IMG/VR virus record: IMGVR_UViG_3300036791_000393
Span: 1 to 25,965 of that record
Strand: one strand, 5' to 3'
Length of the DNA stretch: 25,965 nucleotides
Origin: a virus
Both the position numbers and the translations under genes were made by a program. Every line of letters starts with the position of its first letter. Position 1 is the first letter of the stretch. Below, one piece after another: positions 4,604 to 17,955 of this stretch. The notes beneath the pieces are model-generated. The model was not told the DNA's origin, searched no databases, and was given only the letters and a program-made list of their open reading frames with translations.

Positions 4604-4604
4604 G

Positions 4605-5510
4605 TCACAGCCTCGCGAAGCGACGGCGCCAGTTGTTGTAATAGTTCGTCACGCGCGCCGACTGCTTGGTCGCGTTGATCTCGGAAACGCGAGACTTGTA
4701 TTTCTTCTCCCAATAGTCGTTGACATCGATCTTTTGCATCTTCGTCACGAGCAGGTAGGCGGCATAGAATTGCACCGCGTCGCTCAGCGGATCGATGATC
4801 TGAAAGTCAACGTCGGTCAGATTGACCAGCGGGTTCGGCGTCGACAACGCATCGATGTCGAGCCCGTAAGGCTGGTCGGGGACCGGATAGAGGTAGAGCT
4901 TCTGCATTTCGGTAAAGAGCGACCATACGCCGGGGTAGCGGAACTGGGACGTGTTCGCCCGACAGAACGCCTGGTACGGGCCGAACGGCATCCACGACGC
5001 GGCCCAGCGCTGGACGCCCCAGATCACCGCAACGCCCTTGATGTCGAAGACATTGAACATGGCAATCGCGGTGCCGGTCGCGCCGGTGCCGGGGCCGCCG
5101 TCCGTGATCGTCACGCTCGGCGTCGAGACGTACCCCGTGCCCCAGCTCGTCATGTTGATTTGCGTAATGACGCCGCCCGCAATGAGCGCGACCGCCGTTG
5201 CCTGCGTGCCGCCGGCCGGGGGCGCCCCGATGGTCACGATCGGGCTGGTGTAGCCCGTACCGCCGGCCGTAAGCAGGATGCCCATGACGCCGCCGGTGAG
5301 CGGATAGGTTTCCTGCTGCGTGATGGTCGATCCGCCGAACTGATTCGGCGCGACGTAGGTCGAAAACAGGGTGCGGACGCAATGCGTATCGAGCGACACG
5401 CGCTTGCGGGCGCCGTTCACGGCATTGGTGAATTCAGATTGCGTCCAGTCGACCGAGCTGAGGTCGTGCAGCAGCTCCTGGACCTGAAGGATGTAGTCCT
5501 GCAGTTGCAC
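4605..5510 (-). CDS. Head-tail connector / tail-tube A-like protein (301 aa)
   Basis: The likely start is GTG at 5510; the only nearby ATG is out of frame. Residues 1-50 (helical, LQDYILQVQELLHDL... WTQSEFTNAVNGARKRVSLDT) and 158-301 (YLYPVPDQPYGLDIDAL, then the helical DAVQFYAAYLLVTKMQKIDVNDYWEKKY) resemble podovirus tail-adaptor proteins of the P22 gp4 / T7 gp11 functional class. That class has a helical bundle with a C-terminal helix packing below the portal. Residues about 77-150 form an inserted Gly/Thr/Tyr module (GGTGYTSP and GTGYVSTPSVTI) that also occurs in the two flanking structural genes. Function is inferred from architecture and gene order. Confidence 0.8.
   Translation of the reverse strand: MQLQDYILQVQELLHDLSSVDWTQSEFTNAVNGARKRVSLDTHCVRTLFSTYVAPNQFGGSTITQQETYPLTGGVMGILLTAGGTGYTSPIVTIGAPPAGGTQATAVALIAGGVITQINMTSWGTGYVSTPSVTITDGGPGTGATGTAIAMFNVFDIKGVAVIWGVQRWAASWMPFGPYQAFCRANTSQFRYPGVWSLFTEMQKLYLYPVPDQPYGLDIDALSTPNPLVNLTDVDFQIIDPLSDAVQFYAAYLLVTKMQKIDVNDYWEKKYKSRVSEINATKQSARVTNYYNNWRRRFARL
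5061..5282 (-). repeat. Gly-Tyr beta-module in the connector-like protein
   Basis: Encodes residues about 77-150 with GGTGYTSP and GTGYVSTPSVTI. It matches the module of the nozzle-like protein, including the GxATAxxxxxxGxV spacing between the two Gly-Tyr motifs. Confidence 0.65.
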
Positions 5511-5513
5511 GGA

Positions 5514-5948
5514 TCATCGCGGGTTCGCTCGCCGCGCCTCTGCTTGGTCCGCCGCTTCCATGAGCTTGTTTGGCCGCGGCGCCCGCGGTGACTGCGTGGC
5601 GGACGGAAGATCGGTCTCGTCTTCCGACACCTCGACCATGCGGAAGCGCACCGGCTTGAACTCGAGCTTGCCGAACCACTTCGTATGATTGTCGGCGCGG
5701 ATCACCTCGGGCGTGTTCCAGCCGTGCCGCTTCTGGCAATACACCAGCATCTCGGCGTCGAGCTCGGACTGCCGCTCGTCCTCGCCGAGCGGGCGCCAGC
5801 CGAAAATGTGGTTTGCGGCGTCGGGCGGGAGGGTCTGCGCCTTGCCCGTCTCGAACGTGTACGGCACGCCGTCGAACCGATCGGCGATGGTGAAGTCGTT
5901 GCTGTTGACGACGCGCACGCCGCCGACCGTGACCTCCTGCGTGTCCAT
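5514..5948 (-). CDS. Hypothetical phage structural/assembly protein (144 aa)
   Basis: ATG at 5948 shares a base with the upstream TGA (TGATG). The protein has a beta-rich start, then a helical central part with CQKRHGW (residues about 71-77), and a charged Pro/Ala/Arg tail from about residue 110. No family is recognised. Its place between capsid-associated and connector genes suggests a head-completion or neck protein, but nothing in the sequence proves it. Coupling on both sides and codon use like its neighbours support a real gene. Confidence 0.8.
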   Translation of the reverse strand: MDTQEVTVGGVRVVNSNDFTIADRFDGVPYTFETGKAQTLPPDAANHIFGWRPLGEDERQSELDAEMLVYCQKRHGWNTPEVIRADNHTKWFGKLEFKPVRFRMVEVSEDETDLPSATQSPRAPRPNKLMEAADQAEARRANPR

Positions 5949-7168
5949 CAGCTATTCACCATCAGTTGCAGGATCGACGTGTCGTTGACGCCGCCCATCG
6001 TGATGCCGGAGAACACGATCGATCCGGTCGCGATCGAGGTGCCCTGCGCGACGCCGAAGTTGCCGGCGACGAGCAGCTTCTGCAGGCCGAAGCCCGGGTC
6101 CTCGATCGAGAGCGCGCCCGCGGTCGACGTGAGCACGCCGCGCGCCGGGCGGGGCTGCAGGAGGTTGTTGTTGTTGAGGCCGGTCGTGCCAGGCGTCAGC
6201 AGGCCCAGCGAGGACTCCCACACGTTGCCGACCGTGTAGCCGACGCCCGAGCCGCCGGTGAGGCCGGTCAGGCCCCAACTCATGATCGCGGTCGCCGCGA
6301 CGCCGCCCGCGAGCGCGCCGGTGGTGTTGGCAAAGGTGATCCCCGGAACGGTCGTGTAGCCGTAGCCGTAGTTCGTCACGACCAGTCCGGTGAGCGTGCC
6401 GGAGCCGGTGAGCGCGCCCGACGTGATCAGCGCGCCTGCGGTCGACGGGAAGGCCGGGTTCTGACCCTGCGCCGTGAACACGCTCGGCGGCATGTTGGTG
6501 ATCTGGCCGGGCGGAACGTAGGGCTGCACGAGGCCGGTTGCCGGAAGGGTGTAGGGTGAGGTCGGCAGGCCCGGATAGTTCTGGAATTGCGGCACCACGT
6601 AGTAGTTCGGCACCGACGTATAGCCGGCGCCCGCATTGGTCAGCGTGACCGTGCTGATACCGCCGCCCGCGGTGAGCGTGCATGTCGCCGTCGCCTGAAT
6701 GCCGCCCTGCGGCGGCGGATCGATCAGGATCAGCGGCGGAACGAGGAAGCCCGAGCCCGCCTGCGTCACGGTCGGCGCCGACAGCGCACCGCCGATGATG
6801 ACGTAGCCCGCCGCGGTGCCGCCCGGGTTCGATGAGCCGGCCGCAAACGAGACCGTCGTGCCGGTCTGCGTCGGGCCGATGCCGTTGGTGCCGCCCGAGC
6901 CCGCATTGGTGATCAGCGCGCTCGTCGTCACGCCGGACATATTCATGAGGCGATAGTTGTAGCCGTCGCAGTCGATGGAATTGGTCGAATCTCCCGGAGA
7001 GGCGAGCGCGCGCCAGGAATACGCAACCGGGTCCCACCACTGCAGCGCCGTCTGATTGCCGAGTGCAAACAGGTAATTCCCGGGCGGGGGATAGAAATAC
7101 TCGCCGCCGGCCAGCGTGACCGGAAACGCGCCGGAGGTGTTGAAAACAAAGGGTCCGCCGAGTCGCAT
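5948..7168 (-). CDS. Gly/Thr-rich beta-repeat virion protein (406 aa)
   Basis: ATG at 7168 lies 12 bases after the capsid stop, preceded by the Shine-Dalgarno-like GAGGAGAAA. The N-terminus (residues 1-75) is aromatic-rich (YFYPPPGNYLF, LQWWDPVAYSW). The rest holds several Gly-rich beta modules: around residues 128-190, with GSGF and NAGAGYTSVP, and around 258-315, with YGYGYTTVPGITF and GSGVGYTVGNVW. The modules match those in the connector-like and nozzle-like proteins. This suggests a surface-exposed decoration or spike protein, or a beta-structured adaptor. Position directly after the major capsid protein suits a head decoration or head-tail protein. Function is inferred; the family is not recognised. 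Confidence 0.8.
   Translation of the reverse strand: MRLGGPFVFNTSGAFPVTLAGGEYFYPPPGNYLFALGNQTALQWWDPVAYSWRALASPGDSTNSIDCDGYNYRLMNMSGVTTSALITNAGSGGTNGIGPTQTGTTVSFAAGSSNPGGTAAGYVIIGGALSAPTVTQAGSGFLVPPLILIDPPPQGGIQATATCTLTAGGGISTVTLTNAGAGYTSVPNYYVVPQFQNYPGLPTSPYTLPATGLVQPYVPPGQITNMPPSVFTAQGQNPAFPSTAGALITSGALTGSGTLTGLVVTNYGYGYTTVPGITFANTTGALAGGVAATAIMSWGLTGLTGGSGVGYTVGNVWESSLGLLTPGTTGLNNNNLLQPRPARGVLTSTAGALSIEDPGFGLQKLLVAGNFGVAQGTSIATGSIVFSGITMGGVNDTSILQLMVNS
6224..6931 (-). repeat. Gly-Tyr beta-modules in the 406-aa virion protein
   Basis: Two stretches, residues about 80-190 (6599-6931) and 258-315 (6224-6397), contain GSGF, GAGYTSVP, GYGYTTVP and GVGYTVG motifs of the same type as in the connector-like and nozzle-like proteins. 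Confidence 0.6.
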
Positions 7169-7180
7169 GGGAATTTCTCC

Positions 7181-8188
7181 TCAGATCGGCAGGAAGTTCA
7201 GGCCGTCGATCTTCTGGTGTGCCTTACACTTCACGTTGACGAGCTGGATCAGGGTGACGACCGCGCCGAGATAGCCGAGCTGGCCGTTGACCAACGTCGA
7301 CTCGAACCCCGTGAAGGCGAACGCCGCCTTCTCGCCGATGTAGGCCGACAGGTAGTTGTGGTTGATCAGGTACAGCGTGCCCTCGGGGCAGTACGGATCG
7401 GGGTAGAACGGCACGCCGGCCACATCGAGCGCCTCGAACAGCGCCTCGACCTTCGTCGCTCCGAACGACTGCGAGGGCGTGACCACGTAGCGCTCGGCCG
7501 ACGTGAAGTCCTGCGCGAGGTTCGCCCAGGTGCCGAAGCCCATCAGGCCGAAGGTCGGCTTCTCGCCGGTGACCTTGGTGCACTGCGCGATGTACTGCAG
7601 CATCAGATTGCGGGTCGGCGTGGTGGCGCCGCCGTTGTGCACGTAGGTCGATTTCCAGAACGTGTTGGCCGGCCGGTTGATGCCGCCGTAGGACGCCGCG
7701 AAGGTGCCGTCGTCGATCGCGGCCGGCAGGCCGACCATCGATTGCGAATTCGAGATGTTGTTGTAGATGTCGGTGGCGAAGCGATCGAGCGTCACATTCG
7801 TGACATCGTTCATGCGCGCTTCGATCAGCGGCACGACCGAGTAGTCGAGCTGCACCATGCCTTCGAGGCCGAGGAACGGGATCGCCGAGAGATAGCCGGC
7901 GAGGTTGAACTCGGCATTCTGCAGGCCCGGGATGGTGCCGGGCTGATTGAACGAGCCGTCGTATCCGATGTTCTGAATCGACACCATCGGGTTGCCCTGC
8001 AGCGGCACCGTGATCGGCGACAGGCCGCCCGACGCGACCTGTGCGTGGGCGAGCATGGCCGCCATGAAAGGCGTCGACTTCCAAAGCTGGACGTACACCT
8101 TGGGGAGGAAGGCGCGGCGGGTCACGCTCGCGAGCTCGGCGGCGATGGCGCCCTGTGCCGGGACGATTCCAGTGCCAAATTGCGGCAT
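7181..8188 (-). CDS. Major capsid protein (335 aa)
   Basis: The 335-aa product has the size and composition of an HK97-fold major capsid protein. It has an N-terminal arm and helix (ELASVTRRAFLPKVYVQLWKSTPFMAAML), then extended strand segments (SPITVPLQGNPMVSIQNIGYDG). A helical P-domain-like stretch follows (VVPLIEARMNDVTNVTLDRFATDIYNNI), then an A-domain with FGLMGFGTWANLAQDF and VAGVPFYPDPYCPEGTLYLINHNYL. The motif of a predicted-cheap surface loop followed by GTLYLIN is common in capsid proteins of phages infecting Alphaproteobacteria. A GGGGAG Shine-Dalgarno site precedes the start by about 10 bases. The gene directly upstream encodes a charged coiled-coil protein, as expected for a scaffold-capsid pair. 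Confidence 0.9.
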   Translation of the reverse strand: MPQFGTGIVPAQGAIAAELASVTRRAFLPKVYVQLWKSTPFMAAMLAHAQVASGGLSPITVPLQGNPMVSIQNIGYDGSFNQPGTIPGLQNAEFNLAGYLSAIPFLGLEGMVQLDYSVVPLIEARMNDVTNVTLDRFATDIYNNISNSQSMVGLPAAIDDGTFAASYGGINRPANTFWKSTYVHNGGATTPTRNLMLQYIAQCTKVTGEKPTFGLMGFGTWANLAQDFTSAERYVVTPSQSFGATKVEALFEALDVAGVPFYPDPYCPEGTLYLINHNYLSAYIGEKAAFAFTGFESTLVNGQLGYLGAVVTLIQLVNVKCKAHQKIDGLNFLPI

Positions 8189-8202
8189 GGCTTATGCTCC
8201 CC

Positions 8203-8730
8203 TTACGCGGCCCGGCCGCGTTTGATTTCGGTGATGACCTTGTAGGCTTCGTTGCGCGCAGCCTTGGTCGGATCGGTGAGAAGCTCGGCCATCGGCGTGC
8301 CGTCGATCCCGGGAATGTCCCAGGTGCCGGTCTGCTCGGCGGGCGGGGTCGCGGGGCGGCGCGCCTGGTAGAGATCGGCGCCGGCCTCGTAGTCGGTGAT
8401 GCCGTACTTGGTCATCACCGCCTCGACCTCCTTGATCTGATCCTCGCTGTAGCCGCGCGTGACGAGGCCGCGGCGCTGCGCGGTCAGGCGCTGCTCGGTT
8501 TCCCGGCGCTCCTCCTCGAGCTTGCGTTCCTCTTTCTCGCGCTCGCGCTCGGCGGCCATGTCGGCGCGCAAGTCCTCGACTTCCTGACTGGGGAAGCGTC
8601 GGTGCGGGTCCACCTTCTTGACGGCGTGGATGAAGTCCTTGCGCGTCTCCTTGTTCTGGGAGAGCTTCATGGCGAGCTCGGCCAGATCCTCGATCACGTC
8701 CTTGCTGTGTCCGTCGATCAATCGCGCCAT
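8203..8730 (-). CDS. Putative scaffolding protein (175 aa)
   Basis: A highly charged helical protein. Residues about 50-90 are dominated by Glu, Arg and Lys (EREREKEERKLEEERRETEQR) and should form a coiled coil. A C-terminal helix ends in EIKRGRAA. Scaffolding proteins of tailed phages are typically small, helical and charged, have basic C-termini that contact the capsid shell, and are encoded just before the major capsid gene, as here with a 14-bp gap. GAGG lies 5 bases before the ATG at 8730. No protease or delta-domain is visible. Alternative: a capsid-associated minor protein. Confidence 0.75.
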   Translation of the reverse strand: MARLIDGHSKDVIEDLAELAMKLSQNKETRKDFIHAVKKVDPHRRFPSQEVEDLRADMAAEREREKEERKLEEERRETEQRLTAQRRGLVTRGYSEDQIKEVEAVMTKYGITDYEAGADLYQARRPATPPAEQTGTWDIPGIDGTPMAELLTDPTKAARNEAYKVITEIKRGRAA

Positions 8731-8737
8731 CGCATCC

Positions 8738-8947
8738 TCACCGGAACGGCATGCCCTTGCGGGCCATGCTGGACGACGTGTAGGTCACGCCCTTGCGCTC
8801 GTAGCCGGCGTTGCGACGGCCCGGCTGCTTGTCGAGCTGGAAGCCGCAAAAGCCCGGATTGCTCGGCGGATTGGCGTAGTGCTCCGCGCGCTTCTCGCTG
8901 TTGAGCGCGCCGGTTGGGCGGATCGCCGGATGGTCGCGCCAGGTCAA
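8738..8947 (-). CDS. Small phage protein, TTG start (69 aa)
   Basis: The frame reads to a stop at 8738-8740. The best start is TTG at 8945-8947, overlapping the upstream TGA as TTGA and preceded at about 7 bases by AGGGGA, a good Shine-Dalgarno site. No ATG is available before the conserved part. The sequence is Arg/Asn/Gly-rich, contains NPPSNPGFCGF and ends RKGMPFR. It resembles the product of the adjacent upstream gene (PSYPEFGGF ... HKGKPI), suggesting a tandem duplication. Function unknown; a minor head protein is likely from location. Confidence 0.65.
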   Translation of the reverse strand: MTWRDHPAIRPTGALNSEKRAEHYANPPSNPGFCGFQLDKQPGRRNAGYERKGVTYTSSSMARKGMPFR

Positions 8948-9141
8948 ATCGGTTTCCCCTTGTGCGCGGTCGGCGAGCGCTCGAGCGCCATCGACGGGTT
9001 GCGCTGATCCTTGATCTTGGACGCGCCGGAGAAGCCGCCGAACTCGGGGTAGCTCGGGATGTTGCGGAACTGCCCATCCTGCTTCTTGCGCTCGCCGAGC
9101 TTTCCGGCGCGCACCTTCGGACGAAACAGATTGTCGGCCAT
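8944..9141 (-). CDS. Small phage protein (65 aa), probable paralogue of its downstream neighbour
   Basis: ATG at 9141 is preceded by GGGAGAG. The product is basic and Gly-rich: MADNLFRPKVRAGKLG at the start, NIPSYPEFGGF in the middle, HKGKPI at the end. The pattern N-x-P-S-x-P-x-F-x-G-F followed by a terminal K-G-x-P is shared with the next gene. No known domain. It lies within the head-gene cluster and is translationally coupled to the next gene through TTGA. Confidence 0.7.
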   Translation of the reverse strand: MADNLFRPKVRAGKLGERKKQDGQFRNIPSYPEFGGFSGASKIKDQRNPSMALERSPTAHKGKPI

Positions 9142-9152
9142 GGCTCTCTCCC

Positions 9153-9518
9153 TCACCCGTGCTCGAGGATGGTGAGCACGGCACCCGGCTGCGCGCCGAT
9201 CCCGTTCCATCCGCACCCGCACGGAAGATTGTCGAAAATGAACTTGTCGCCCGGCTGCATGGTGATCGAGCCGGCGCCGTTGATGACCGCGACGCCGACC
9301 GGGGGCGCACCTCCGGCCGGCACCGGCGGGTAGACCCCCAGCGCTCCGATGTTGACGTTCGCCGGACAGATCGCCACGGCGACCGTGCCGGAGTTGATGA
9401 AGATCAATCCGGTACGGGTCGGATTGGCCGGCAGCACGGGCTGCGACGTGAGCCCAACGGTGGTTCCCCACCCGATCGGCAGTGAATTTGTGGTGTTGCC
9501 GCCAGTGCTGAGTGCCAT
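9153..9518 (-). CDS. Small beta-rich phage structural protein (121 aa)
   Basis: The sequence is rich in Gly, Pro, Thr and hydrophobic residues with alternating strand patterns (TGLIFINSGTVAVAICPANVN, GSITMQPGDKFIFDN). It looks like a compact beta-sandwich or jelly-roll, as in decoration or head-fibre base proteins. CGCGWNG near residues 100-106 has two Cys close together. Location between the Pro/Ala-rich protein genes and the scaffold supports a head-associated virion component. Family not recognised. Confidence 0.75.
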   Translation of the reverse strand: MALSTGGNTTNSLPIGWGTTVGLTSQPVLPANPTRTGLIFINSGTVAVAICPANVNIGALGVYPPVPAGGAPPVGVAVINGAGSITMQPGDKFIFDNLPCGCGWNGIGAQPGAVLTILEHG

Positions 9519-9531
9519 CGTCGCCCCCGGA

Positions 9532-10197
9532 TCAGACCGGCCACTCGGCCCAGCTCAGCGACTGACGCGCGGCCTGCGCCTGCGCGGCGGTGCCGGCCGT
9601 GGTGGCGAGCGTGCCGGGCGGCAGGATCACCGAGCCGTCGAAGTCGTAGTTGATCGGCGTGGCGTTGGTGGTCGTCACCGCCCCAAACGACAGCAGCGTC
9701 GGGCCGACGAACATGTTCGTGCCCATGGTGTTGACGAGGGTCGCGGCCGAGTAGCCGGTGCACACCGACGTGATGCCGGCGCCGCCCGAGGCGTTGAAGC
9801 CGAGTGCATTGCGGATGGTGAGGAGGGTCAGCGTGCCGGGCGCGGTGACCGCCTGGCCGACGCCGGGCTGCACGTACAGCGTGACATCCGACACGACGGT
9901 CGTCGCGTTCAGGAGGCCGTAGCTGTAGCGGATCAGCTCGACGTTCTTGCCGGAGCCGAGCGGATTCCAAATCGTGAAGGTCGAGACCAGGTTGGTGGTC
10001 TGCACCGGGACCGTGGTGCCGGCCGCCGCGGTGTTGAGATGGAAGACGTTGCCGGCGCGCGCCGCGGAATAGAATTTGCCGTGCAGCTCGCTGGCGAGAA
10101 GTTCGCCGGACTGGCCGGCGGCGACCGGGGCGTTCGCTGCGACGGCAGCGGCGTTCGCATTGACGTTGAGGCCAATGGTGCCAAAAATGACGGGCAT
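9532..10197 (-). CDS. Phage structural protein, possible capsid decoration/head protein (221 aa)
   Basis: ATG at 10197 follows a strong AAGGAGA Shine-Dalgarno site at about 6 bases, the best in this region, implying high expression. After an Ala-rich N-terminus (residues 8-25), the protein is beta-rich with many Thr/Val/Asn strands (TTNLVSTFTIWNPLGSGKNVELIRYSYGL). It ends in an Ala/Gln helix and SLSWAEWPV. Strong expression and location near scaffold and capsid suggest a decoration or minor capsid protein. No family is recognised. Confidence 0.75.
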   Translation of the reverse strand: MPVIFGTIGLNVNANAAAVAANAPVAAGQSGELLASELHGKFYSAARAGNVFHLNTAAAGTTVPVQTTNLVSTFTIWNPLGSGKNVELIRYSYGLLNATTVVSDVTLYVQPGVGQAVTAPGTLTLLTIRNALGFNASGGAGITSVCTGYSAATLVNTMGTNMFVGPTLLSFGAVTTTNATPINYDFDGSVILPPGTLATTAGTAAQAQAARQSLSWAEWPV

Positions 10198-10234
10198 TTG
10201 CGTTCTCCTTTAGGTCCGGCAGAGCGCGCCGGGA

Positions 10235-10429
10235 TCAGTTGCCGGGGATCACCGGCGGGGTGATGCCAAGCTCGAAAGCCTGGTCATTGCGAAGGATGCG
10301 AAGCTCGTCCTGTTGCGAGCTTCCGGCCTGCTGCTGCAGCAGATTCGAGATCACGCGCAGCTCGACCGCGGTGAGCGTCTCGGCGCTGGTGCCGGAAAGG
10401 GTCGGAAATCCGCCGATGTAGGTGGTCAT
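10235..10429 (-). CDS. Hypothetical small phage protein (64 aa)
   Basis: ATG at 10429 overlaps the upstream stop (ATGA). The central helix, residues about 15-48, is amphipathic (ETLTAVELRVISNLLQQQ), followed by DELRILRNDQAFELGITPP. It resembles short helical head-assembly proteins in composition, but no family is recognised. Coupling to the upstream Pro/Ala-rich gene and conserved spacing support a real gene. Confidence 0.65.
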   Translation of the reverse strand: MTTYIGGFPTLSGTSAETLTAVELRVISNLLQQQAGSSQQDELRILRNDQAFELGITPPVIPGN

Positions 10430-10854
10430 GCGGCTTCTCCCATCGGATTGGGTTCGGGCGGCGTGGCGCCGGGAGCGGGAGCTGGTGCGAGGCCGGGCGG
10501 CGGTGCGGCGCCCATCGGGCTTCCGCCCTTCGAGGCCTGCGCCATCTGCATGATCGCGGCCGGGACCATCCCGGAGCTCTGCTCTTTGCCGAAGTTGGCG
10601 GTGAGCGCGCGCAGCGCGTTGAGCACCGCGGCGTATTTCTTCGATCCGACCGGGTAGGCCGAGAGCGCCTTGTGCATCGCCGGCAGGATCGCGTGGACCA
10701 TGGCGTCGGCCGCCGCCTCGTTGCCGGCGCCGTTACCGGGCGCCAACGCAGGACTTGCGCCCGGTCCAGTCGGGCCGCCCGCCATGTTTCCCGGAAGGGA
10801 GGGCTTTCCGGGCATTGCTCCGGCGGGCGGCATTCCTGGAAGGGGTGGCGTCAT
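10426..10854 (-). CDS. Pro/Ala/Gly-rich phage protein with helical core (142 aa)
   Basis: Residues 1-45 and 110-142 are disordered Pro/Gly/Ala repeats. Residues about 46-108 form a likely helical core (DAMVHAILPAMHKALSAYPVGSKKYAAVLNALRALTANFG). Short proteins of this architecture are common next to portal or scaffold genes of alphaproteobacterial phages, where they are annotated as hypothetical. It is the first gene after the intergenic island at 10.86-11.13 kb and probably starts a transcription unit. Its Shine-Dalgarno is weak (AAGG about 12 bases upstream of the ATG). Confidence 0.7.
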   Translation of the reverse strand: MTPPLPGMPPAGAMPGKPSLPGNMAGGPTGPGASPALAPGNGAGNEAAADAMVHAILPAMHKALSAYPVGSKKYAAVLNALRALTANFGKEQSSGMVPAAIMQMAQASKGGSPMGAAPPPGLAPAPAPGATPPEPNPMGEAA

Positions 10855-10905
10855 GCAAAATCAATACCTTGCGAGACGCAATTGATGTTCACCTTTAGAA
10901 AGTTT

Positions 10906-10922
10906 TGTCAATTGACTGATCG
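10906..10922 (-). promoter_or_regulatory. 16-bp repeat element, copy 1, with TTGACA -35-like box
   Basis: Plus-strand 10907-10922 reads GTCAATTGACTGATCG, and its first ten bases are a perfect palindrome. The minus strand gives TTGACA at 10906-10911, pointing to the gene that starts at 10854. Spacing to a -10 box is unclear, so promoter function is tentative. Two related copies occur at 11109-11124 (one mismatch) and 17940-17955 (one mismatch). Confidence 0.5.
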
Positions 10923-10931
10923 CAAACGAAA

Positions 10932-10959
10932 ACCCCGGCCGCCAATCGCAAGCCGGGGT
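10932..10959 (-). terminator. Rho-independent terminator, probably bidirectional
   Basis: Stem ACCCCGGC (10932-10939) pairs with GCCGGGGT (10952-10959) around a 12-base loop. On the minus strand the stem is followed by TTTTCGTTT, on the plus strand by CTTTTTAT. It lies 27 bases after the stop of the 14-codon ORF and upstream of the next leftward gene, so it would end the short transcript. The strand given is that of the micro-ORF. Confidence 0.85.
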
Positions 10960-10986
10960 CTTTTTATCCCTGAAAGGCCGGGCGCC

Positions 10987-11031
10987 TTAGCGCTTGTGCC
11001 GACGACGACCGCGCTTGTGCCGACGAGCCAT
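10987..11031 (-). CDS. 14-codon Arg/Lys/His-rich micro-ORF (MARRHKRGRRRHKR)
   Basis: On the minus strand, AGAGGAGG (11037-11044) stands 5 bases before ATG at 11031, and the frame ends with TAA at 10987-10989. The peptide is 14 residues, eleven of them Arg, Lys or His, built on a repeated RRHKR unit: the DNA contains a near-exact duplication of GCGCTTGTGCCGACGA. It has the strongest Shine-Dalgarno site in its neighbourhood, a promoter-like sequence upstream and a terminator downstream, with no other gene in the unit. No homologous family is known to me. An RNA-binding (arginine-rich-motif) or DNA-condensing role is speculation. The ORF could instead be a translated leader or attenuator. Confidence 0.55.
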   Translation of the reverse strand: MARRHKRGRRRHKR

Positions 11032-11085
11032 GCGTGCCTCCTCTGGGTTGCCCGTGTGACCGGGTGGGATGACAGTGCGCCGGCT

Positions 11086-11113
11086 ACGATAATGCTTTAA
11101 CAAAGCCTGTCAA
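11086..11113 (-). promoter_or_regulatory. Probable promoter of the micro-ORF
   Basis: The minus strand reads TTGACA (11108-11113), 16 bases, then TATCGT (11086-11091), matching a sigma-70 promoter at -35 fully and at four of six -10 positions. Transcription would start near 11079, giving a leader of about 48 bases before the micro-ORF ATG. The -35 overlaps the second copy of the 16-bp repeat. Confidence 0.5.
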
Positions 11114-11124
11114 TTGACTGTTCG
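11108..11124 (-). promoter_or_regulatory. 16-bp repeat element, copy 2
   Basis: Plus-strand 11109-11124 reads GTCAATTGACTGTTCG, one mismatch from copy 1. It contains the same GTCAATTGAC palindrome and lies just beyond the end of the methyltransferase gene. It covers the -35 of the micro-ORF promoter, a position suited to an activator or repressor site. Confidence 0.5.
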
Positions 11125-11131
11125 GTAACGA

Positions 11132-11803
11132 TTATATCTTTATGGCGAGCCGACCGGTGTAATCGATCCGGTTGAGCATGACGGGCAGGCGCTCGCGTTC
11201 GATGTACTCGTCGACCGCCTTGCGCGCGCCCTGCCAGTGCCCGTAATCGTCGACGATCACGACGCCGCCTTTCGACAGGCGCGGCCAGAGATGGGCCATC
11301 TCGTGCGCGGTCGATTCGTACCAATCGGTATCGAGCCGCATGAGCGCGATCGCGGCCGGCGCCTGGCGCGGCAGCGTGTCCTCGACCCGGCCCTCGACGA
11401 GGTGGACGCACTGCGCCGGGTAGCCGGTCTCGAGCACGTTGGCGCGGACCTCATCGCGCGGGCAGAACACTTGCATGCCGTAGCCGCGCGGGCCGCCGGC
11501 AGGCTGGCCCATAAAATTGACATCGACATCGGCCGGGTTCGTCATGCCGGCGAAGGTGTCGAACAGGTGGATGTCGCGGATTGCGCTCGTGCGCGCGAGC
11601 GTGCCGATCATCGCCATTATGCTGCCGCCGCGCCACACGCCGCACTCGACGAAATCGCCGGGGATGTCGCATCGCACGATGTACGCGACCGCGTGGCACA
11701 GCGCTGCGATCCGCTCCGGGCTGGTGAGCGTGTAGTGTTGCACGCGCCGGATTATGTCGTTGATCCAGTCCGGCTCGTCGAGCAGAAACTTGGTTTCCTT
11801 CAT
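11132..11803 (-). CDS. TylF/MycF-type SAM-dependent methyltransferase (223 aa)
   Basis: The start is ATG at 11803, overlapping the upstream TGA (ATGA); a longer in-frame extension reads through the preceding gene and is rejected. The protein has a class I SAM-binding site, FVECGVWRGGS (residues 51-61), with acidic FDTF (D82) at the end of the second strand. It also has LMRLDTDWYES (154-164) and the signature GGVVIVDDYGHWQGARKAVDEY (179-200). These are hallmarks of the macrocin-O-methyltransferase family, Mg-dependent enzymes that methylate sugar hydroxyls. With the upstream glycosyltransferase-like gene it suggests glycan modification, perhaps of a virion protein or host surface polysaccharide. 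It is an unusual insertion between portal and capsid genes. Family call is firm; substrate unknown. Confidence 0.9.
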   Translation of the reverse strand: MKETKFLLDEPDWINDIIRRVQHYTLTSPERIAALCHAVAYIVRCDIPGDFVECGVWRGGSIMAMIGTLARTSAIRDIHLFDTFAGMTNPADVDVNFMGQPAGGPRGYGMQVFCPRDEVRANVLETGYPAQCVHLVEGRVEDTLPRQAPAAIALMRLDTDWYESTAHEMAHLWPRLSKGGVVIVDDYGHWQGARKAVDEYIERERLPVMLNRIDYTGRLAIKI

Positions 11804-12867
11804 AGGCCGAGGGCTTTCCAGGCCGCCAGGATGTTCGCGTAGTCGTCCGGCTTCCACACGATGCGCTGATCGGGACCGGACCACGGCCATTGACCGCCGA
11901 CCTCGAGGCCCATGCTGTTGCGTAGAAAAGCCACCGTGGCCGGCCGATAATCATCGTTGTCCGGCCGCGCCGGCATGAATATCAGCCACGGCCGCGTGCC
12001 GAACACCGCGAGCATGGATGGACCGTTCGAGACGAACAGATTGGCCTTGGCGCTTTCGTACAGCGCCATGCGCATGTGAATGTCGCGCGAGGCCGCCGGG
12101 CAGGTCACAAAATCCCCAAGCGGCTCATCGGCCCTCGCGGTGTCGCGCACGAAGATGACCCGCTCACCCTGCATGCGGAGATACTCGGCAAAGGACATCC
12201 ATGCGTCGGGGTTGCTGTTGCGATCGACATCGTAGTCGGCCTCGCGCAGTGTGATCGTCACAGGCCCGTTCAAAACGAACCCTTTCGGAGAGTGGAACGT
12301 CGGCACCTTCTCGCCAGCGCGCGCGGCCGCGACGACATCGCGCAGCACATAGACTTCCTTCTGCCGGCCGCGCCATGCCGAGTCGTCCTCGACGGCGCCG
12401 ATCAGCCCCAGCATGGGACGCACGACGTTCTCGAACATCTGCGCCATGGCGGGCGTCTTGAGCCCGGTTTTGCCGTCGCGGCCGAACCAGAACGCGACCT
12501 TGAGCGGGGCCGGCGCACCTTCCCGCACGCGGGTCATCTCGGCATCGATGAGCCAATGCGGAAAGTCGTAGTTGAGCGGCGCGGTGGTGCAGTTGTAGCA
12601 GACGTAATCGGCGCCGAGCGCGGGATCGGGCGGCGGGAGGGTGCGGTTTTCCACGTCGGAACCGAGCTTTCCGACCACCTCGCGCGCGGTTTCAAGCACC
12701 GCCCCCTCGAGGATGACGGCACCGGCCATTCCGACCAGCGGCAGCGGCACGTTGCCGTCGCCGTCCGGCTCATGGCACAGCATGATCAGCGCATAGGCGG
12801 GCCGCGCCTCGCGGGCGAGCCCCGAGAAATGATCGAGCAGGGCGATCACGTCCGATTTGACGGTCAT
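11800..12867 (-). CDS. Glycosyltransferase-like (GT-B fold?) protein (355 aa)
   Basis: ATG at 12867 overlaps the portal stop (ATGA). The N-terminal part has a DGDGN loop at about residues 34-38. The C-terminal half (about 210-355) has VTITLRE, AWMSFAEYLRMQGERVIFVRD, MRMALYESAKANLFVSNGPSMLAVFGTRPWLIF and a final RIVWKPDD. This order (a 'no-choice' Gly-Pro loop after a helix, then a strand with a Pro-rich turn, and a C-terminal D-D) is seen in the nucleotide-sugar binding half of GT-B glycosyltransferases. It forms an operon with a sugar-methyltransferase-type gene, which supports a glycan-modifying role. I cannot name the family, so the function is an inference. Confidence 0.7.
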   Translation of the reverse strand: MTVKSDVIALLDHFSGLAREARPAYALIMLCHEPDGDGNVPLPLVGMAGAVILEGAVLETAREVVGKLGSDVENRTLPPPDPALGADYVCYNCTTAPLNYDFPHWLIDAEMTRVREGAPAPLKVAFWFGRDGKTGLKTPAMAQMFENVVRPMLGLIGAVEDDSAWRGRQKEVYVLRDVVAAARAGEKVPTFHSPKGFVLNGPVTITLREADYDVDRNSNPDAWMSFAEYLRMQGERVIFVRDTARADEPLGDFVTCPAASRDIHMRMALYESAKANLFVSNGPSMLAVFGTRPWLIFMPARPDNDDYRPATVAFLRNSMGLEVGGQWPWSGPDQRIVWKPDDYANILAAWKALGL

Positions 12868-14582
12868 GCGGCCTTCGCGCGGTGCGGTTTCTGCTGCGCA
12901 AGTTCCGGATTGGCCTTGATCGCCTCGGCCTTCGCCTTGAGCCGCGCGCGCAGCGAGTGGATCATGTTGTCGGCGTTGGGCGGGTTGATCAGGCGGATGA
13001 ACATCTCCTGATCGATCGCCTGCGCCTTGAGCAAAATTCCGGCGTCTTCCTTGGCCTCGTCGGCGAACAGCGGAGAATGGCTGTGCCCGGCCACGCGCAG
13101 CTTGAACGCCGCGGCGAGCTGCGCCAGCACGAACTCCTTGCCGTCGTCCGCCTTGAGGAGCGTGTCGTCGTTCTTGGCCTTGAGCTTCATGCCGACATCG
13201 CCGAGCTTCATCAGCGACTGCTCGAGCCCCACGCCGATCTTGCGGATGCGCGCCGACCCGGTGGTGGCGAGCTGCTTGGCGTGGCCGCGTCCGCGCACAC
13301 CCGCCTCGCCCTTGCCGGTGACGGTCTCGGTCAGGCCGGACGCCTCGAGGAAGATCGCCCCGATCGCCTGGAATTCGGCGAACAGGTCTTCCGGCATGTC
13401 GGGGGCGAGCGTGTCGACCTTGGCGCCGGTGTTCATCGGCTCGACCACCCACGAGCCTGGCCCGCCGAGCGCCGATGCCTTCTCGTCCTGCAGGCCGGTG
13501 AAGCCCGAGAACACCTTGGCGGGGTCGACCTGCCGCTCGAGGATGTCGGCGATCTGGTCGAGTCGCTCGTTGGTCCAGCGCTGCAGCGGGATCAGCCGCT
13601 CGATATGCGCCTCGCCCCAGAAATATTCCGGCAGCGTGTAGGGACGGATGTGGATGAACGGGTGCTCGTTGGGCAGAAAGATGTTCGATTGACTGCCCCA
13701 CTCGGCGAACTTGGCCGGCGTTTCCTTTGCCATGTCGTCGACCGTATCGCGCGAGTCGGAAATGACCTCCGAGCCCTCGCCATTGTCGACGGTCACGAAG
13801 ATCGCGTAATCCTCGGTGATGTCGTCCCAGACATAGACCTCGGTGAAGTTGGCGGACGGCGCATCGCTCATCGGCTCGTAGGTCGGCTTGGGCTCGTAGT
13901 CGAGCGGCACCGAGCCGACCACCGGGCCGGAGATGTTGGTGCCGCCGGTCTGCGACACCTCGAGCATGTGGGCGAGCACGGGCGGATAGTCGGATGTCTT
14001 CGGCCCGAATTCGATCGTCAGCTTGGGCAACAGGTCGAGCTTTCCAGCGCGCGCGAGGCGCAGGACCGTGTTGTCCCAATCGAGCGAATAGGTGTGCGTG
14101 AACGCCTCCTGGCTGTCGAGATCGGGGTCGCTCTCGTCGAACACGCCCATCGCGGACGGCAGCACGGTGCGGCCAAACAATTCCTCGCGCTCGCTGTTCC
14201 ACCCCATTTTGATGAACATCGAGTCGTAGACCAGCGACCACAGCAGGTTCACGCCGTACTGCGCGGCGAGGCCGGAATCGCGGAATGTGTCGTTCCAGTC
14301 GTCTTCTGCGGCGAGCATCTGCTTGACGATCGCCTCGGCCGAATTGCGCGGCGCCGAGATCGAGAACCGGGCGTGGTCCTCGGCGAACAGGAACGCGGCA
14401 ACGAGGTCCATGTGGGCGTAGAGGCGATTGTAGCGCACCGTCTCCTGCCCGTAGGTGCCGTAGAGGAAGTAGCGCTTGCGCCGATCGTAGATCGCCCTGC
14501 GGTCCTCCTGCGATTGCTTGCAGACCGAGGCGATCCACTGGACTTTCTCGTCGCGTTTTGCCTTGTTGCGCGGGATGATCAT
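12864..14582 (-). CDS. Phage portal protein (572 aa)
   Basis: 572 residues, a usual portal length. The N-terminal region (YFLYGTYGQETVRYNRLYAHMDLVAAFLFAEDHARFSISAP) and the following NSAEAIVKQMLAAEDDWNDTFRDSGLAAQYGVNLLWSLVYDSMFIKMGW match the wing and stem of portal proteins. The centre (WGEAHIERLIPLQRWTNERLDQIADILERQVDP) is the typical clip/stem region, and the C-terminus is helical and Lys/Ala-rich. It lies directly after the terminase cluster and overlaps it by ATGA, as is standard for packaging modules. AAGGGGG lies 4 bases before the ATG. It forms the dodecameric ring at the head vertex through which DNA is packaged. Confidence 0.9.
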   Translation of the reverse strand: MIIPRNKAKRDEKVQWIASVCKQSQEDRRAIYDRRKRYFLYGTYGQETVRYNRLYAHMDLVAAFLFAEDHARFSISAPRNSAEAIVKQMLAAEDDWNDTFRDSGLAAQYGVNLLWSLVYDSMFIKMGWNSEREELFGRTVLPSAMGVFDESDPDLDSQEAFTHTYSLDWDNTVLRLARAGKLDLLPKLTIEFGPKTSDYPPVLAHMLEVSQTGGTNISGPVVGSVPLDYEPKPTYEPMSDAPSANFTEVYVWDDITEDYAIFVTVDNGEGSEVISDSRDTVDDMAKETPAKFAEWGSQSNIFLPNEHPFIHIRPYTLPEYFWGEAHIERLIPLQRWTNERLDQIADILERQVDPAKVFSGFTGLQDEKASALGGPGSWVVEPMNTGAKVDTLAPDMPEDLFAEFQAIGAIFLEASGLTETVTGKGEAGVRGRGHAKQLATTGSARIRKIGVGLEQSLMKLGDVGMKLKAKNDDTLLKADDGKEFVLAQLAAAFKLRVAGHSHSPLFADEAKEDAGILLKAQAIDQEMFIRLINPPNADNMIHSLRARLKAKAEAIKANPELAQQKPHRAKAA

Positions 14583-15070
14583 GATGCCCCCTTGTGCCGC
14601 GCGACCACCTTTGGCGTCGGCCCGCGCAGCGGTGCGTTGACGAGGCGATCACCCTGCCGCACCGGGACCGCCACGCCGCCGTCGCGGAATTTTCCGCCGG
14701 TTGCGATCGTCATCGTGTCGCTCATCCCGTTCGGCATGCAGGTCGGAACGGGGCGGCCGGCGGCGTCGAGGCCTACTTTTCCGCCGTATCCGCCGACCGT
14801 GATGTCCTGAAACTTCGCCGCCGCCGCCACCTTCGGCCGCGGGGCCGCGCGCTCGCCCGCGGCGGGATCGTTCATGTTGGTCATGCCGGCGCGCTCGGTG
14901 ATGGAGCGGATCGTCTTGTCGTAGCCGGGCGATTTTTTTGCCACATGAAAACCGCCCGGTATCCATTTGACCTTGAGCGCGCCGCACTTCGGACACGGCG
15001 GATGATCGCCGTCGGCGGTCCACTCGTTGCGGCATCGTCGATTGAGGCAGCCCCATGTGCGGATGATCAT
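14579..15070 (-). CDS. Zinc-ribbon-containing phage protein (163 aa)
   Basis: ATG at 15070 follows GGAGGAC at 4 bases and overlaps the upstream TGA. The N-terminus has four Cys arranged as C8-x4-C13 ... C26-x2-C29 (WGCLNRRC, PPCPKCG), a zinc-ribbon of the FmdB/rubredoxin-like type. The rest is Gly/Ala-rich and basic, with DTMTIATGGKFRDGGVAVPV. It lies between the packaging HTH gene and the portal. A DNA- or RNA-binding packaging accessory is possible. Family is not recognised beyond the ribbon. Confidence 0.8.
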   Translation of the reverse strand: MIIRTWGCLNRRCRNEWTADGDHPPCPKCGALKVKWIPGGFHVAKKSPGYDKTIRSITERAGMTNMNDPAAGERAAPRPKVAAAAKFQDITVGGYGGKVGLDAAGRPVPTCMPNGMSDTMTIATGGKFRDGGVAVPVRQGDRLVNAPLRGPTPKVVARHKGAS

Positions 15071-15360
15071 ATGTCCTCCACCGCCGGGCCTTCGGCGATC
15101 CATTCCCGGTCACGGCGCCGAAACCGCAGCCGGCCGGCGCGGATGTCGAGTATCGCCTGCGTCATCCTGATCCGCGTGTGCTCGGCGATGCCCATCTCGC
15201 CGTGGATCATCTCGTTGAGCGCCTGCCGCGAGATGCCGACGAAATCCGCGAACGACTTGAGCGGCACGCGCTTTCCGCCCAGCGTCTCCCCGGCCCGATC
15301 GTGTCGGTAGCGCTTCAACTCGCGCACGATCTCCTCGCGCGGCAGCGGGCCGGGCATCAT
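15067..15360 (-). CDS. HTH DNA-binding protein next to terminase (97 aa)
   Basis: Starts at ATG 15360 overlapping the terminase stop (ATGA; a second ATG at 15357 is equally possible). The core PLKSFADFVGISRQALNEMIHGEMGIAEHTRIRMTQAIL (residues about 33-70) is a Cro/C1-type helix-turn-helix, with the recognition helix around SRQALNEMIHG. The C-terminus is Arg-rich (RRRDREW). Small terminase subunits recognise DNA with HTH domains but are usually encoded upstream of the large subunit. Here an HTH gene lies downstream and no convincing small subunit is seen upstream. It could be the small subunit, an antitoxin-like protein or a late regulator. HTH fold is well supported; role uncertain. Confidence 0.75.
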   Translation of the reverse strand: MMPGPLPREEIVRELKRYRHDRAGETLGGKRVPLKSFADFVGISRQALNEMIHGEMGIAEHTRIRMTQAILDIRAGRLRFRRRDREWIAEGPAVEDI

Positions 15361-17219
15361 GTTTTCACCGGCACCGGCATCTTGATGTTCTGCGTGCGCA
15401 GGAAGTTCATCACGATCTCCTCGACCTTCTGCGGCCCGCCGCGCTCCGCGTCGCGCTGTGCCTTCTCGAGCGTGAGCCCCTGCGCGATCAGCCGCGGCTG
15501 CACCCACTGCCGCCATGCCTCGTGCGCCAGCGCATTCGCAATCACCCGATCGTCCTTCGAGCGCCCCGAGCCATGGATCATCGAGCCCTCGCGCACGATC
15601 TTCTTGCACTCCTCCAAGGTCGCCACCGAGCGCACGCGACAGCGCTTGAGGTCGAGCCCGTCGCGAAACTTGGTGAGCAGAACCTCTTTGTTCTCGCCCG
15701 ACATCTTCCATTGCATCATGCCGGACGACCCGTTGATGCGGTCCACCCGGCGATAGAAGTAGTAGCGCATCGCGCCGAGACAGTTGCGGATGTTCTTGTT
15801 TTCCTCGGTCGCCGGAATCTTCGCGACCTGCTGGCGCAGCTTGTCGAGCTCGTCCTGCACGGTCTGCCCCGGCCCGGTGATTTCCAGGTTGAGCATCGCG
15901 TTGCGATAGTATCCGGCGAGATGCGCGATCACCCAGGCGCACTGATAGGTCGAGACGTTCGGCGTGCAGAACTCGGCCACCTGATAGCAGAGGTCGGCAA
16001 AGCAGCGGTGCACCGCGATCACGGTGCGGTCCGCGTCCTCGCTCGACCCGTAGGCCGGATCGCACCCGATCGCGTAGTGACCGTTCGGATCGGCCGCCTC
16101 CCACACGCGCAGCTCGGCCCGCCCGGCCTGCTTCGGAGGCACCTGCTGGCATTCGGTCTCGGTCCACTCCTTCGTCAGAAGGTAGCGGAACGGCACGAAC
16201 GCCTGCTCCCGCGCATAGCGCGTCGCGTCGGTCAATGTCTCGTTCTTGAAAAACGTCGAACCGGTGACGACGAACGCATCCTCCGGCATCCACGGGAACA
16301 TCTCGTCCATCTTCATCTGGTCGCCGTCGCACTCGTCGTCCAGCTTCCAGCGATACCAGGCGACCTGCTCGGCCGTGATGGTGAAGTCGTAGGCCTTCTT
16401 CACCGACCGGATGCGCGAGCGCTCGAGCGCATTCAGGGGCGACTTCTCGCCCGGCGCATAAAGCGGAAAATACGGATGGTTCTTCGGGTAGGCGTAGAGC
16501 TCGTTCCGCCACCAGCCGACAAAAATGGCGCGCTGCGTCGGCGACGACACCGCCTTTTCCCACATCTCCTGGAAATGATTCGGCCCGTTCGCGGTCGTCT
16601 CGTAGACCTGCAGGCGATGCGGATTGAGCGCCGACATCGTGGCGCGCAGCTCCTTCAAATCCTCCTCCGAGCCCCAGAACGCCACCTCGGTCGCGTGCAG
16701 GAAGTTGTACGCACCCGACCGCCCGAGCGAGCCCTTGGTCTTCTGCTTCACCCCCGCGACCAGGTAGGCGAGAAAAGAGCCATTCGCGAGCAGCAGCATG
16801 TCGCGGTTGTGCACCGGCCGCATCATCTTGTGCGTCTTCGGCAGGTTGTTGAAAAACACGTTGATGATGTTGCGGAACTGCTCGCGCGACTGCTCGGTGT
16901 GCGTCGCAAACGCCCCCGCGGTCCCGGGATATTCCATCTCCCAGAACACATCCAAGGCGATGAAAAATGTCGTCGCCCCAATCTGCCGCGACTTGAGGAT
17001 CACGAACGTCGTCGCGCCCTCCGCCAGCCCCTTGCACATCTCATCGAAGATGTAGCGCTGCGTGCCCAGCATCGTGAACGCCTGCAGCCCAAAATCCTTC
17101 GTCATGACCTTGAGCCGCGCGCACCATTTCAGAAACCGATCGCGCGGGAACGGCGCCACCGGGGCCAGCGCCCGCATGGCCGGCGTCGGCTCGAGATCGG
17201 GCGGCGCCAGCGCGTCCAT
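15357..17219 (-). CDS. Terminase large subunit (620 aa)
   Basis: Residues 75-84, LKSRQIGATT, are the Walker A-like loop of phage large terminases (SRQxG(A/W)TT type). A Walker B-like strand with a catalytic acid follows around LHATEVAFW (174-182). The nuclease half carries GCDPAYG (385-391, D387) and a DDR pair (D556, D557) near ANALAHEA. The family is the ATP-driven motor plus headful nuclease that packages DNA through the portal. ATG at 17219 shares a base with the previous stop (TGATG), and the stop overlaps the HTH gene. Length is typical for the family. Confidence 0.95.
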   Translation of the reverse strand: MDALAPPDLEPTPAMRALAPVAPFPRDRFLKWCARLKVMTKDFGLQAFTMLGTQRYIFDEMCKGLAEGATTFVILKSRQIGATTFFIALDVFWEMEYPGTAGAFATHTEQSREQFRNIINVFFNNLPKTHKMMRPVHNRDMLLLANGSFLAYLVAGVKQKTKGSLGRSGAYNFLHATEVAFWGSEEDLKELRATMSALNPHRLQVYETTANGPNHFQEMWEKAVSSPTQRAIFVGWWRNELYAYPKNHPYFPLYAPGEKSPLNALERSRIRSVKKAYDFTITAEQVAWYRWKLDDECDGDQMKMDEMFPWMPEDAFVVTGSTFFKNETLTDATRYAREQAFVPFRYLLTKEWTETECQQVPPKQAGRAELRVWEAADPNGHYAIGCDPAYGSSEDADRTVIAVHRCFADLCYQVAEFCTPNVSTYQCAWVIAHLAGYYRNAMLNLEITGPGQTVQDELDKLRQQVAKIPATEENKNIRNCLGAMRYYFYRRVDRINGSSGMMQWKMSGENKEVLLTKFRDGLDLKRCRVRSVATLEECKKIVREGSMIHGSGRSKDDRVIANALAHEAWRQWVQPRLIAQGLTLEKAQRDAERGGPQKVEEIVMNFLRTQNIKMPVPVKT

Positions 17220-17458
17220 CAGCGCCCCTGCAGCATCTCATCGAGAGAGCGCCCATAGAACCCAGGCACAGAAAGATCGCTGAAGAGGACCGCCGCCTCA
17301 GGCTCCCCGAACGGGTCCAGAAACTCCCCCCGCCCCACCCCCAACTTATCCACAGATTTCCGCGTCCACGGCCACCGAAACCTATCCCGCAATACCGCCG
17401 GGACGTGCTCGCCCCCCATCCCAAGCCGATCCGCCGCGCTCAGCCTCATCCGAAACAT
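17219..17458 (-). CDS. Short hypothetical ORF preceding the terminase gene (79 aa)
   Basis: The frame ends at 17219 and overlaps the terminase start as TGATG, a typical coupling. ATGs at 17458 and 17449 and a TTG at 17494 are candidate starts; none has a good Shine-Dalgarno site. I chose 17458 because TTGACT at 17489-17494 looks like a -35 box. The protein is compositionally plausible (RFRWPWTRKSVDKL... PGFYGRSLDEMLQGR) but no family is recognised. By position it could be a vestigial or divergent small terminase subunit, although no HTH is seen. Moderate confidence that it is translated. Confidence 0.45.
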   Translation of the reverse strand: MFRMRLSAADRLGMGGEHVPAVLRDRFRWPWTRKSVDKLGVGRGEFLDPFGEPEAAVLFSDLSVPGFYGRSLDEMLQGR

Positions 17459-17678
17459 GAGCCGCAGAACACAACCGATTGAGCCAAAAGTCAATCTGGG
17501 AACACGACAGACCCATTTTTATCCGGGGGGCGGGACGTACTGGGCGCCCTCCGCTCACACTCACGCGACCCATCGGCCTGGTGCGCGCCCGCGCGCGAGT
17601 GGCATACCATGCTACCGTGCAGGGGGCCGCAACCCATTTGGGGACAATGCATTGGGTGAGCAATATCAATAGGTTACC

Positions 17679-17706
17679 GCGATGCAATATCTCATATGTG
17701 CATCGC
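17679..17706. repeat. 28-bp inverted repeat, arms GCGATGCA / TGCATCGC
   Basis: Left arm at 17679-17686 and right arm at 17699-17706 are perfect 8-bp complements with a 12-base AT-rich spacer, itself partly palindromic (ATAT-CTC-ATAT). It is the longest perfect inverted repeat I noticed in the non-coding DNA. It could be a protein-binding site or part of a packaging site. Confidence 0.6.
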
Positions 17707-17939
17707 AATGAGTGCGGTGCAAAACGGACGCGCGGGGAGGAGAACGGTCGACCACAGGGAGACGTTCGATTTACGCGGATCGATTGTCTTGTCGTCGCGC
17801 TTGGTTCCGTGGATAGACGCTGCGCCCGCGTGGGAGCGGGCTTGCTGGTCCTCGCTACGCTGCGGGCGGCTTTTATTCTTGTTGTGCCTCCGGCGGACCG
17901 GCCTTCCGGTGACCAGCGTAGGGGGGCCGTAAGTTGAAA

Positions 17940-17955
17940 GTCAATTTACTGATCG
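17940..17955. promoter_or_regulatory. 16-bp repeat element, copy 3
   Basis: Reads GTCAATTTACTGATCG, one mismatch from copy 1 (third base of the central TTG changed, so the palindrome is broken). The minus strand gives TTGACT, which could serve as a -35 for the terminase unit, but a convincing -10 is not seen. Confidence 0.4.

Follow-up and report, generated by a model that had tools for sequence, protein, structure and literature searches.

A conserved family of Arg/Lys-rich micro-genes between the portal and capsid genes of uncultivated tailed phages

Tailed phages are thought to pack their DNA by motor force and small cations alone. Phage-encoded peptides that are very short and rich in Arg and Lys are known from the Microviridae (phiX174, G4, alpha3 and SpV4), whose J/VP8 packaging peptides include SpV4 VP8, a 38-residue protein (pI 12.9) located on the inner side of the capsid (PMC11281519). 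The adenovirus core peptide mu (protein X) has 19 residues and is present in 100-300 copies per virion (PMC7998265), and baculovirus P6.9 is an Arg-rich late DNA-packing protein (PMC12159748).

Here we describe a 14-codon gene in a virus record of 25,965 bases (the window), and a family of 10-16-residue peptides encoded in the portal-capsid interval of its relatives. Like J/VP8, these micro-peptides are highly basic, short and encoded with capsid genes. However, J/VP8 peptides end in a C-terminal hydrophobic anchor that is buried in the capsid protein, whereas the micro-peptides have no hydrophobic C-terminus. J/VP8 peptides also come from ssDNA T=1 phages, whereas the micro-peptides, which can occur in tandem copies, come from tailed dsDNA phages: the surrounding module holds terminase, portal and tailed-phage capsid genes, so this is not a ssDNA microvirus genome. 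Mu, which binds DNA and helps to condense it, is likewise a small basic peptide, from a dsDNA virus of similar genome size. A viral protease releases mu from a precursor of 79 residues, whereas the micro-peptides are complete ORFs with their own Shine-Dalgarno (SD) sites; we claim no homology. P6.9 is longer than the micro-peptides and, unlike them, is Ser/Thr-rich, phospho-regulated and encoded by an unrelated virus.

Two regulatory systems also bear comparison. The arginine-rich motifs of phage N proteins (lambda, P22) share with the micro-gene a short Arg-rich sequence, a phage transcription unit and a nearby hairpin, but N recognises one specific boxB loop and extends into regions that bind NusA and RNA polymerase, and the micro-gene has neither a conserved loop nor the extra sequence. 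Amino-acid attenuators resemble it in having a tiny ORF followed by a terminator. Their leader peptides conserve codons of the one amino acid that is sensed, whereas the micro-ORFs swap Arg and Lys, and an attenuator controls read-through into a promoterless gene, whereas a TTGAC-type element, recognised by consensus, follows the terminator in the window and in several relatives. Judged from sequence, membership in the J/VP8, mu, N-type antiterminator and attenuator classes fails where tested. In function, the nearest systems would be J/VP8 and mu, with P6.9 as a longer analogue.

The micro-gene unit in the window phage

The initial annotation described a self-contained unit of promoter, leader, SD site, 14 codons with an internal RRHKR duplication and terminator, and all of these elements are present on the minus strand (Table 1). 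The encoded peptide contains 7 Arg, 2 Lys and 2 His, so that 11 of its 14 residues are basic, and RRHKR occurs in it twice. With a leader of ~48 nt, the whole unit spans only ~120 nt. Taken singly, its signals are unremarkable. The putative promoter is the best consensus match within positions 1-18000 (10/12), with TATCGT as a weak -10, but promoter matches (4, versus 2.2 in shuffles) and terminator matches (14, versus 12.2) in these 18 kb are hardly above shuffles alone. The case for a gene is strong because the elements combine and because they are conserved. We counted as comparable any ORF of 8-25 codons with a strong SD site and at least 70% R/K/H. The window holds exactly one, against 0 to 0.007 per window in random sequence simulated with the same statistics. 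This simulation rules out a chance ORF, as do the opposite strand and the remaining sequence of the relatives' contigs (see below); the micro-ORF is a genuine protein-coding gene.

Table 1. Coordinates of the micro-gene unit, its promoter elements and the surrounding head genes in the window
Feature	Position	Strand	Evidence
Micro-ORF, 14 codons + TAA, MARRHKRGRRRHKR	10987..11031 (ATG at 11031, TAA end 10987)	minus	sequence; family conservation; coding signature
Shine-Dalgarno site AGAGGAGG	11037..11044, 5 nt upstream of ATG	minus	sequence; SD also in relatives, by search criterion
Leader hairpin CCCG-GTCACA-CGGG, then GCAAC	11051..11064	minus	17-leader stem test
Putative sigma-70-like promoter, TTGACA (11113-11108)-16-TATCGT (11091-11086)	11086..11113	minus	consensus match
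Promoter element copy 1; palindrome GTCAATTGAC at 11109-11118 overlaps -35	11095..11131	minus	repeat search
Intrinsic terminator hairpin + T-rich tail	10931..10960	minus	-21.8 kcal/mol
Promoter element copy 2, upstream of the downstream head/tail operon	10893..10929	minus	repeat search
Third element copy, 2 mismatches, CAGTAAATTGACT, upstream of the terminase/portal operon	17938..17951	minus	element scan
Terminase	17219-15357	minus	
Small helix-turn-helix-like 96-aa protein between terminase and portal	15067..15357	minus	position conserved, sequence divergent in relatives
Portal gene; in relatives, the constant neighbour upstream of the cassette	12864..14582	minus	matches annotated portals of MW202825 and MW202753; PHROG 332 head-tail connector weakly
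First downstream gene, 142-aa Pro/Gly/Ala-rich protein	10426..10854	minus	ORF list; similar ORF start after cassette in relatives
Scaffold-like protein	8730-8203	minus	
Major capsid protein, downstream boundary of interval statistics	7181..8188	minus	PHROG 9953, E 3.4e-24

Leftwards, the gene order is terminase, portal, micro-gene, Pro/Gly-rich protein, several small proteins, scaffold-like protein and major capsid protein. In the window, more than 1.6 kb separate the cassette from the portal, with a TylF-type (macrocin) O-methyltransferase (11135-11821 on the minus strand, within the ORF at 11132-11890; Pfam PF05711, E 3e-45) and another ORF inserted between them. The micro-ORF of the nearest relative, L002, starts 95 nt past the portal stop, and the methyltransferase therefore looks like inserted cargo.

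The shared promoter element, GATCAGTNAATTGAC, links the micro-gene to its neighbours. In the promoters of both the micro-gene and the downstream operon, the palindrome GTCAATTGAC covers the -35, and the two 37-nt repeat copies in which it lies are 76% identical. In L002 the element reads GATCAGTGCATTG at both flanking positions and again upstream of the terminase operon (3606-3619), in L011 and L017 it reads GACYTGRCACTATTCGC at both flanking positions, and L028 and L112 have still other sequences. An element that differs between phages and matches within each phage is what would be expected for the sites of one diverging regulator. A candidate for this regulator is the small helix-turn-helix-like protein whose gene lies between those for terminase and portal; its PHROG matches to regulators are sub-threshold (E 0.12-0.14). 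The element is clear in the window, L002, L011, L028 and L112, weak in L003 and absent in the remaining loci tested. A clade-wide rule is ruled out by its clear presence in five phages only, and we claim it for the window sub-clade. Since the element is common to the capsid and terminase operons of the window phage, the micro-gene fits the late programme; the initial annotation had tied it to that programme from the promoter repeat, and the third copy upstream of the terminase operon bears this out.

Self-containment holds for the window phage but is not universal. In the window sub-clade the micro-gene has its own leader and typically lies 60-130 nt past the portal. In six other phages (L012, L020, L021, L107, L109 and L110) the micro-ORF starts within the last portal codons, which implies translational coupling, and in L019 it starts just past the portal stop. 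Nearly all cassettes examined end in a strong intrinsic terminator.

The leaders hold one further feature, absent from the initial annotation's list and conserved in position among relatives: in MARR-type cassettes, a small GC-rich hairpin stands 18-27 nt ahead of the ATG. Because MAFFT aligned the stems poorly, we used a positional shuffle test. The summed stem score of 17 leaders was 193.5, compared with 72 in shuffles, and none of 500 shuffles scored as high. Pairing is kept while the stems vary (CCCG/CGGG, CCAGC/GCTGG, CTGGC/GCCAG, CCGC/GCGG), and the loops vary in both size and sequence. This pattern fits an element that protects the mRNA or exposes the start site better than it fits a protein-binding loop. 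Rfam gave no match at gathering score in the window and seven relatives, nor at E up to 1 in L025, and a known RNA family was rejected on this basis.

Distribution and coding signature in relatives

Relatives, all of them metagenomic or uncultivated, were retrieved via their portal and capsid proteins, independently of the micro-ORF. In 74 of the first 90 portal loci, one or more basic ORFs of 8-25 codons, each behind an SD site, lie on the coding strand within 1.5 kb past the portal; the opposite strand has no such ORF. Several of the misses are contig ends, and several others have an extended form (21-34 residues) in which a variable N-terminus precedes the same basic tail. The initial annotation had made its reading depend on conservation of the ORF and its SD site, and the larger set bears this out: 116 of 131 portals that are <93% identical are followed by at least one SD-preceded basic micro-ORF. 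The number of copies per locus in this set is 0 in 15, 1 in 55, 2 in 51 and 3 or more in 10, from an automatic count with small errors in both directions. The ORF counted for the window is a different, spurious one, L134 scored 0 yet has a copy 2.5 kb downstream, and some extra ORFs are doubtful (e.g. L036, L037, L049 and L184).

The cleanest figure comes from a stricter definition, applied to 132 loci with both portal and capsid genes. These gave 113 matches in 280 kb of portal-to-capsid interval. The remaining 1,073 kb of that strand held none, and the 1,353 kb of the opposite strand held 3. In the reverse test, two degenerate peptide patterns were run on viral contigs, and 88 of 96 micro-ORFs directly follow a portal gene on the same strand. 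The remaining eight are near contig ends, seven of them with a capsid gene ~1.4 kb downstream. The micro-gene is thus locked to the portal-capsid junction.

In freshwater relatives the cassette takes a tandem form, with two or three consecutive micro-ORFs that each have their own SD site. L147, for example, encodes MYKSVKRSRRGKRR, MAKRKGRKAKR and MRKGRKGRKARR. The divergent relative L201 has five tandem basic micro-ORFs (3466-3770), MARRHRRGRRR and four of 15-17 residues, one of them with a TTG start. Two GenBank phages carry two micro-ORFs each, MW202825 (MYKKHKRSRKTRR and MARKARKTRKGRK) and MW202753 (MRKAYKKTRKTRR and MARAKRKGRKARK), and all four are unannotated in these records.

The records instead place hypothetical proteins on the opposite strand, over or next to the micro-ORFs (8246-8506, minus, in MW202825, our L024; 4740-5038, minus, in MW202753, our L025). 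These calls are probably spurious, and annotation has overlooked the micro-genes over the same stretch.

The cassette is absent from one sub-clade (L062, L067, L073, L081, L093-L102 and L180) and from single phages such as L010 and L139. As it is missing in some members, the gene is not essential everywhere; it is advantageous and old, and not indispensable in every background. Distant cultivated phages with a similar capsid or portal (Mx8, Mx9, BUCT555, Mwe-JY13 and two Bradyrhizobium prophages) all lack the cassette, which rules out a wider family that includes them, and no cultivated member was found among 50,697 phage records. The family shows that as few as 10-16 codons can make a gene that selection keeps stably in the head module, at times in several copies, across phages whose portals share only ~31-35% identity.

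Several other ORFs occupy this region. Some of the cassette-less sub-clade keep a longer ORF: in L095, L099, L093 and L180, ORFs of 20-25 residues with Pro-Met-Lys repeats (e.g. MYGKKPMKSPMKPMKKGPMREQKRK) lie in the micro-gene position, ~1.37-1.39 kb before the capsid gene. L010, whose portal is nearly identical to that of the cassette-bearing L011, has two inserted opposite-strand ORFs at the cassette site (3935-5217) that look, by eye only, HNH-endonuclease-like. In freshwater relatives (L143, from 3173; L102, L067, L073 and L085) the portal is followed by a conserved ORF of ~50-60 residues that contains a GDQPR motif. This ORF is present even where micro-ORFs are lacking, and the L143 copy has no PHROG match.

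The initial annotation had named synonymous bias across relatives as the decisive test, and this bias is present. The coding set comprises 125 distinct DNA sequences that encode 98 distinct peptides. From 203 equal-length pairs at 70-97% identity, pN/pS is 0.24 in the ORF frame, whereas the two alternative frames give 2.7 and 3.2; pN is biased somewhat downward because the ORFs were selected as basic, a bias that leaves the location statistics unaffected. The median over 39 independent pairs is 0.23. Between the window and L002 there are five synonymous changes per 10.8 sites and five nonsynonymous changes per 28.2, which are small numbers. Conservation, location and coding frame together support the earlier claim of a gene for a cationic micropeptide among the structural genes.

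The peptides share a design. Arg (42%) and Lys (25%) dominate the 88 short peptides, all of which lack acidic residues and Pro, and 84 of which also lack W, F, L and I; the C-termini are Arg or Lys. Gaps between residues other than Arg and Lys are exactly three in 67% of cases, compared with 17% in composition-preserving shuffles (0 of 1000 as high), and in 64% after reduction to 50 sequences. The residues at these triplet positions are Gly, Ala, Ser, His and Thr, as in RKA-RKG-RKA-RK or RRH-KRG-RRR-HKR. The RRHKR duplication noted initially is present and proves to be one case of this general basic-basic-small rhythm. Arg and Lys interchange freely and all six Arg codons are in use. The family thus keeps a charge and a geometry rather than any particular codons or a hydrophobic fold. 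At three residues per turn, the small residues would all fall on one side of an extended, polyproline-II-like chain. The Pro-Met-Lys ORFs in the micro-gene position fit this extended-chain idea and are no proof of common descent.

Longer variants (25-31 aa) gave no match in PHROGs or Pfam. The 10-16-residue, almost purely Arg/Lys peptides form an unannotated family, which may be listed, undescribed, in a published catalogue of phage small genes (Cell Reports 2022, as cited in PMC11323111).

Possible roles of the peptide

We propose that the family, in which (Arg/Lys)(Arg/Lys)(small or His) triplets form peptides of 10-16 residues encoded in one to five copies in the portal-capsid interval, acts in the phage head. 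The peptide would be made late and abundantly, and its evenly spaced basic pairs would bind nucleic acid non-specifically, probably in an extended conformation. It may then act during head assembly or DNA packaging in the manner of a viral protamine-like core peptide, either carried into the head with the DNA or priming the portal or procapsid for it. A non-specific polyanion binder would explain the near-pure charge, regular spacing, Arg/Lys exchange, copy number, late co-regulation and portal-side place together, and copy numbers from 0 to 5 are as expected for a dosage-type product. We put the probability of this reading, a late peptide that binds nucleic acid like a protamine and serves head assembly or DNA packaging, at about 50%.

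Simple arithmetic bears on where such a peptide might act. With ~+9 on each peptide, several hundred copies in one head would cancel only a few per cent of the phosphate charge on a genome of 35-43 kb, and thousands would be needed to neutralise a large share of it. Bulk compaction is therefore doubtful, and a local role, at the portal, on the first DNA or as a capsid lining, is likelier.

The strict place beside the portal, with portal-gene overlap in several phages, could also point to an assembly factor that binds protein. Such a peptide would bridge or neutralise acidic portal, scaffold or capsid surfaces during procapsid assembly, need no contact with nucleic acid, and find suitable partners in the window's portal (net charge -21) and scaffold-like protein (net charge -4). 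However, overlap and location suit any head role equally well. The peptides have no conserved hydrophobic or aromatic anchor save the Tyr of one paralogue, and pure charge with triplet spacing suits a polyanion better than a single protein surface. We regard an assembly factor of this kind as a minority possibility. Cationic peptides often bind ribosomes, nucleic acid enzymes or membranes, and a late peptide directed at the host ribosome, nucleases, RNA polymerase or membrane would draw on these common targets and gain dose from tandem copies. It would also be expected in early or accessory regions and with a hydrophobic face, yet the micro-ORF is confined to the portal-capsid interval in all sampled phages, 84 of the 88 peptides lack W, F, L and I, and the promoter element is common to structural operons, all of which makes a host-directed role very unlikely.

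RNA offers another kind of polyanion, and the initial annotation had listed RNA binding, antitermination and nucleic-acid compaction as possible roles. An Arg-rich peptide might bind a hairpin in the late phage mRNA, for autoregulation, antitermination or mRNA protection. Arg-rich motifs of about this size bind RNA hairpins, as phage N peptides bind boxB (PMC11480772), and the conserved leader hairpin of MARR-type cassettes could offer a site. The variable loops and differing stem sequences speak against a specific site, as does the lack of any Rfam match in the window and seven relatives, and phages with portal overlap keep the peptide although they have no separate leader. The peptide is also too short for an additional interface with RNA polymerase or Nus factors. 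We consider an RNA-binding regulator unlikely, and the evidence leans towards nucleic-acid compaction over RNA binding or antitermination. The unit could also act only as RNA, with the ORF as an attenuator or as an accident inside a small RNA; a short ORF with a strong terminator in a unit of this size does resemble attenuation, and the initial annotation had allowed for a regulatory leader. Purifying selection in the ORF frame contradicts this, as do the free exchange of Lys and Arg, incompatible with an attenuator that senses one tRNA, and the downstream operon's own promoter in several phages, as judged by consensus. Moreover, the ORF is kept amid entirely different RNA where it overlaps the portal gene, and each ORF of the tandem arrays has its own SD site. 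A leader or non-coding RNA is scarcely credible.

For the protamine-like reading, the fullest form is one we hold tentatively, at somewhat short of even odds: a clade of tailed dsDNA phages may encode protamine-like virion peptides as tandem genes of 10-16 codons with a triplet design. No smaller gene dedicated to structure or packaging would then be known from tailed phages, and these would have been overlooked since gene callers and family searches ignore ORFs so short. If the packaging role is true, a protamine-like strategy would be added to those of tailed phages, and the family would supply very short natural DNA-binding peptides, such as MARRHKRGRRRHKR and MARKARKGRKARK, that are easily synthesised and tested.

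Outside the head module, the plus strand of the window encodes a RecT-family recombinase (22056-23441; PF03837, E 2.3e-31) and an integrase-like protein just under the Pfam cut-off (23630-24781), which suggests that the window phage is temperate.
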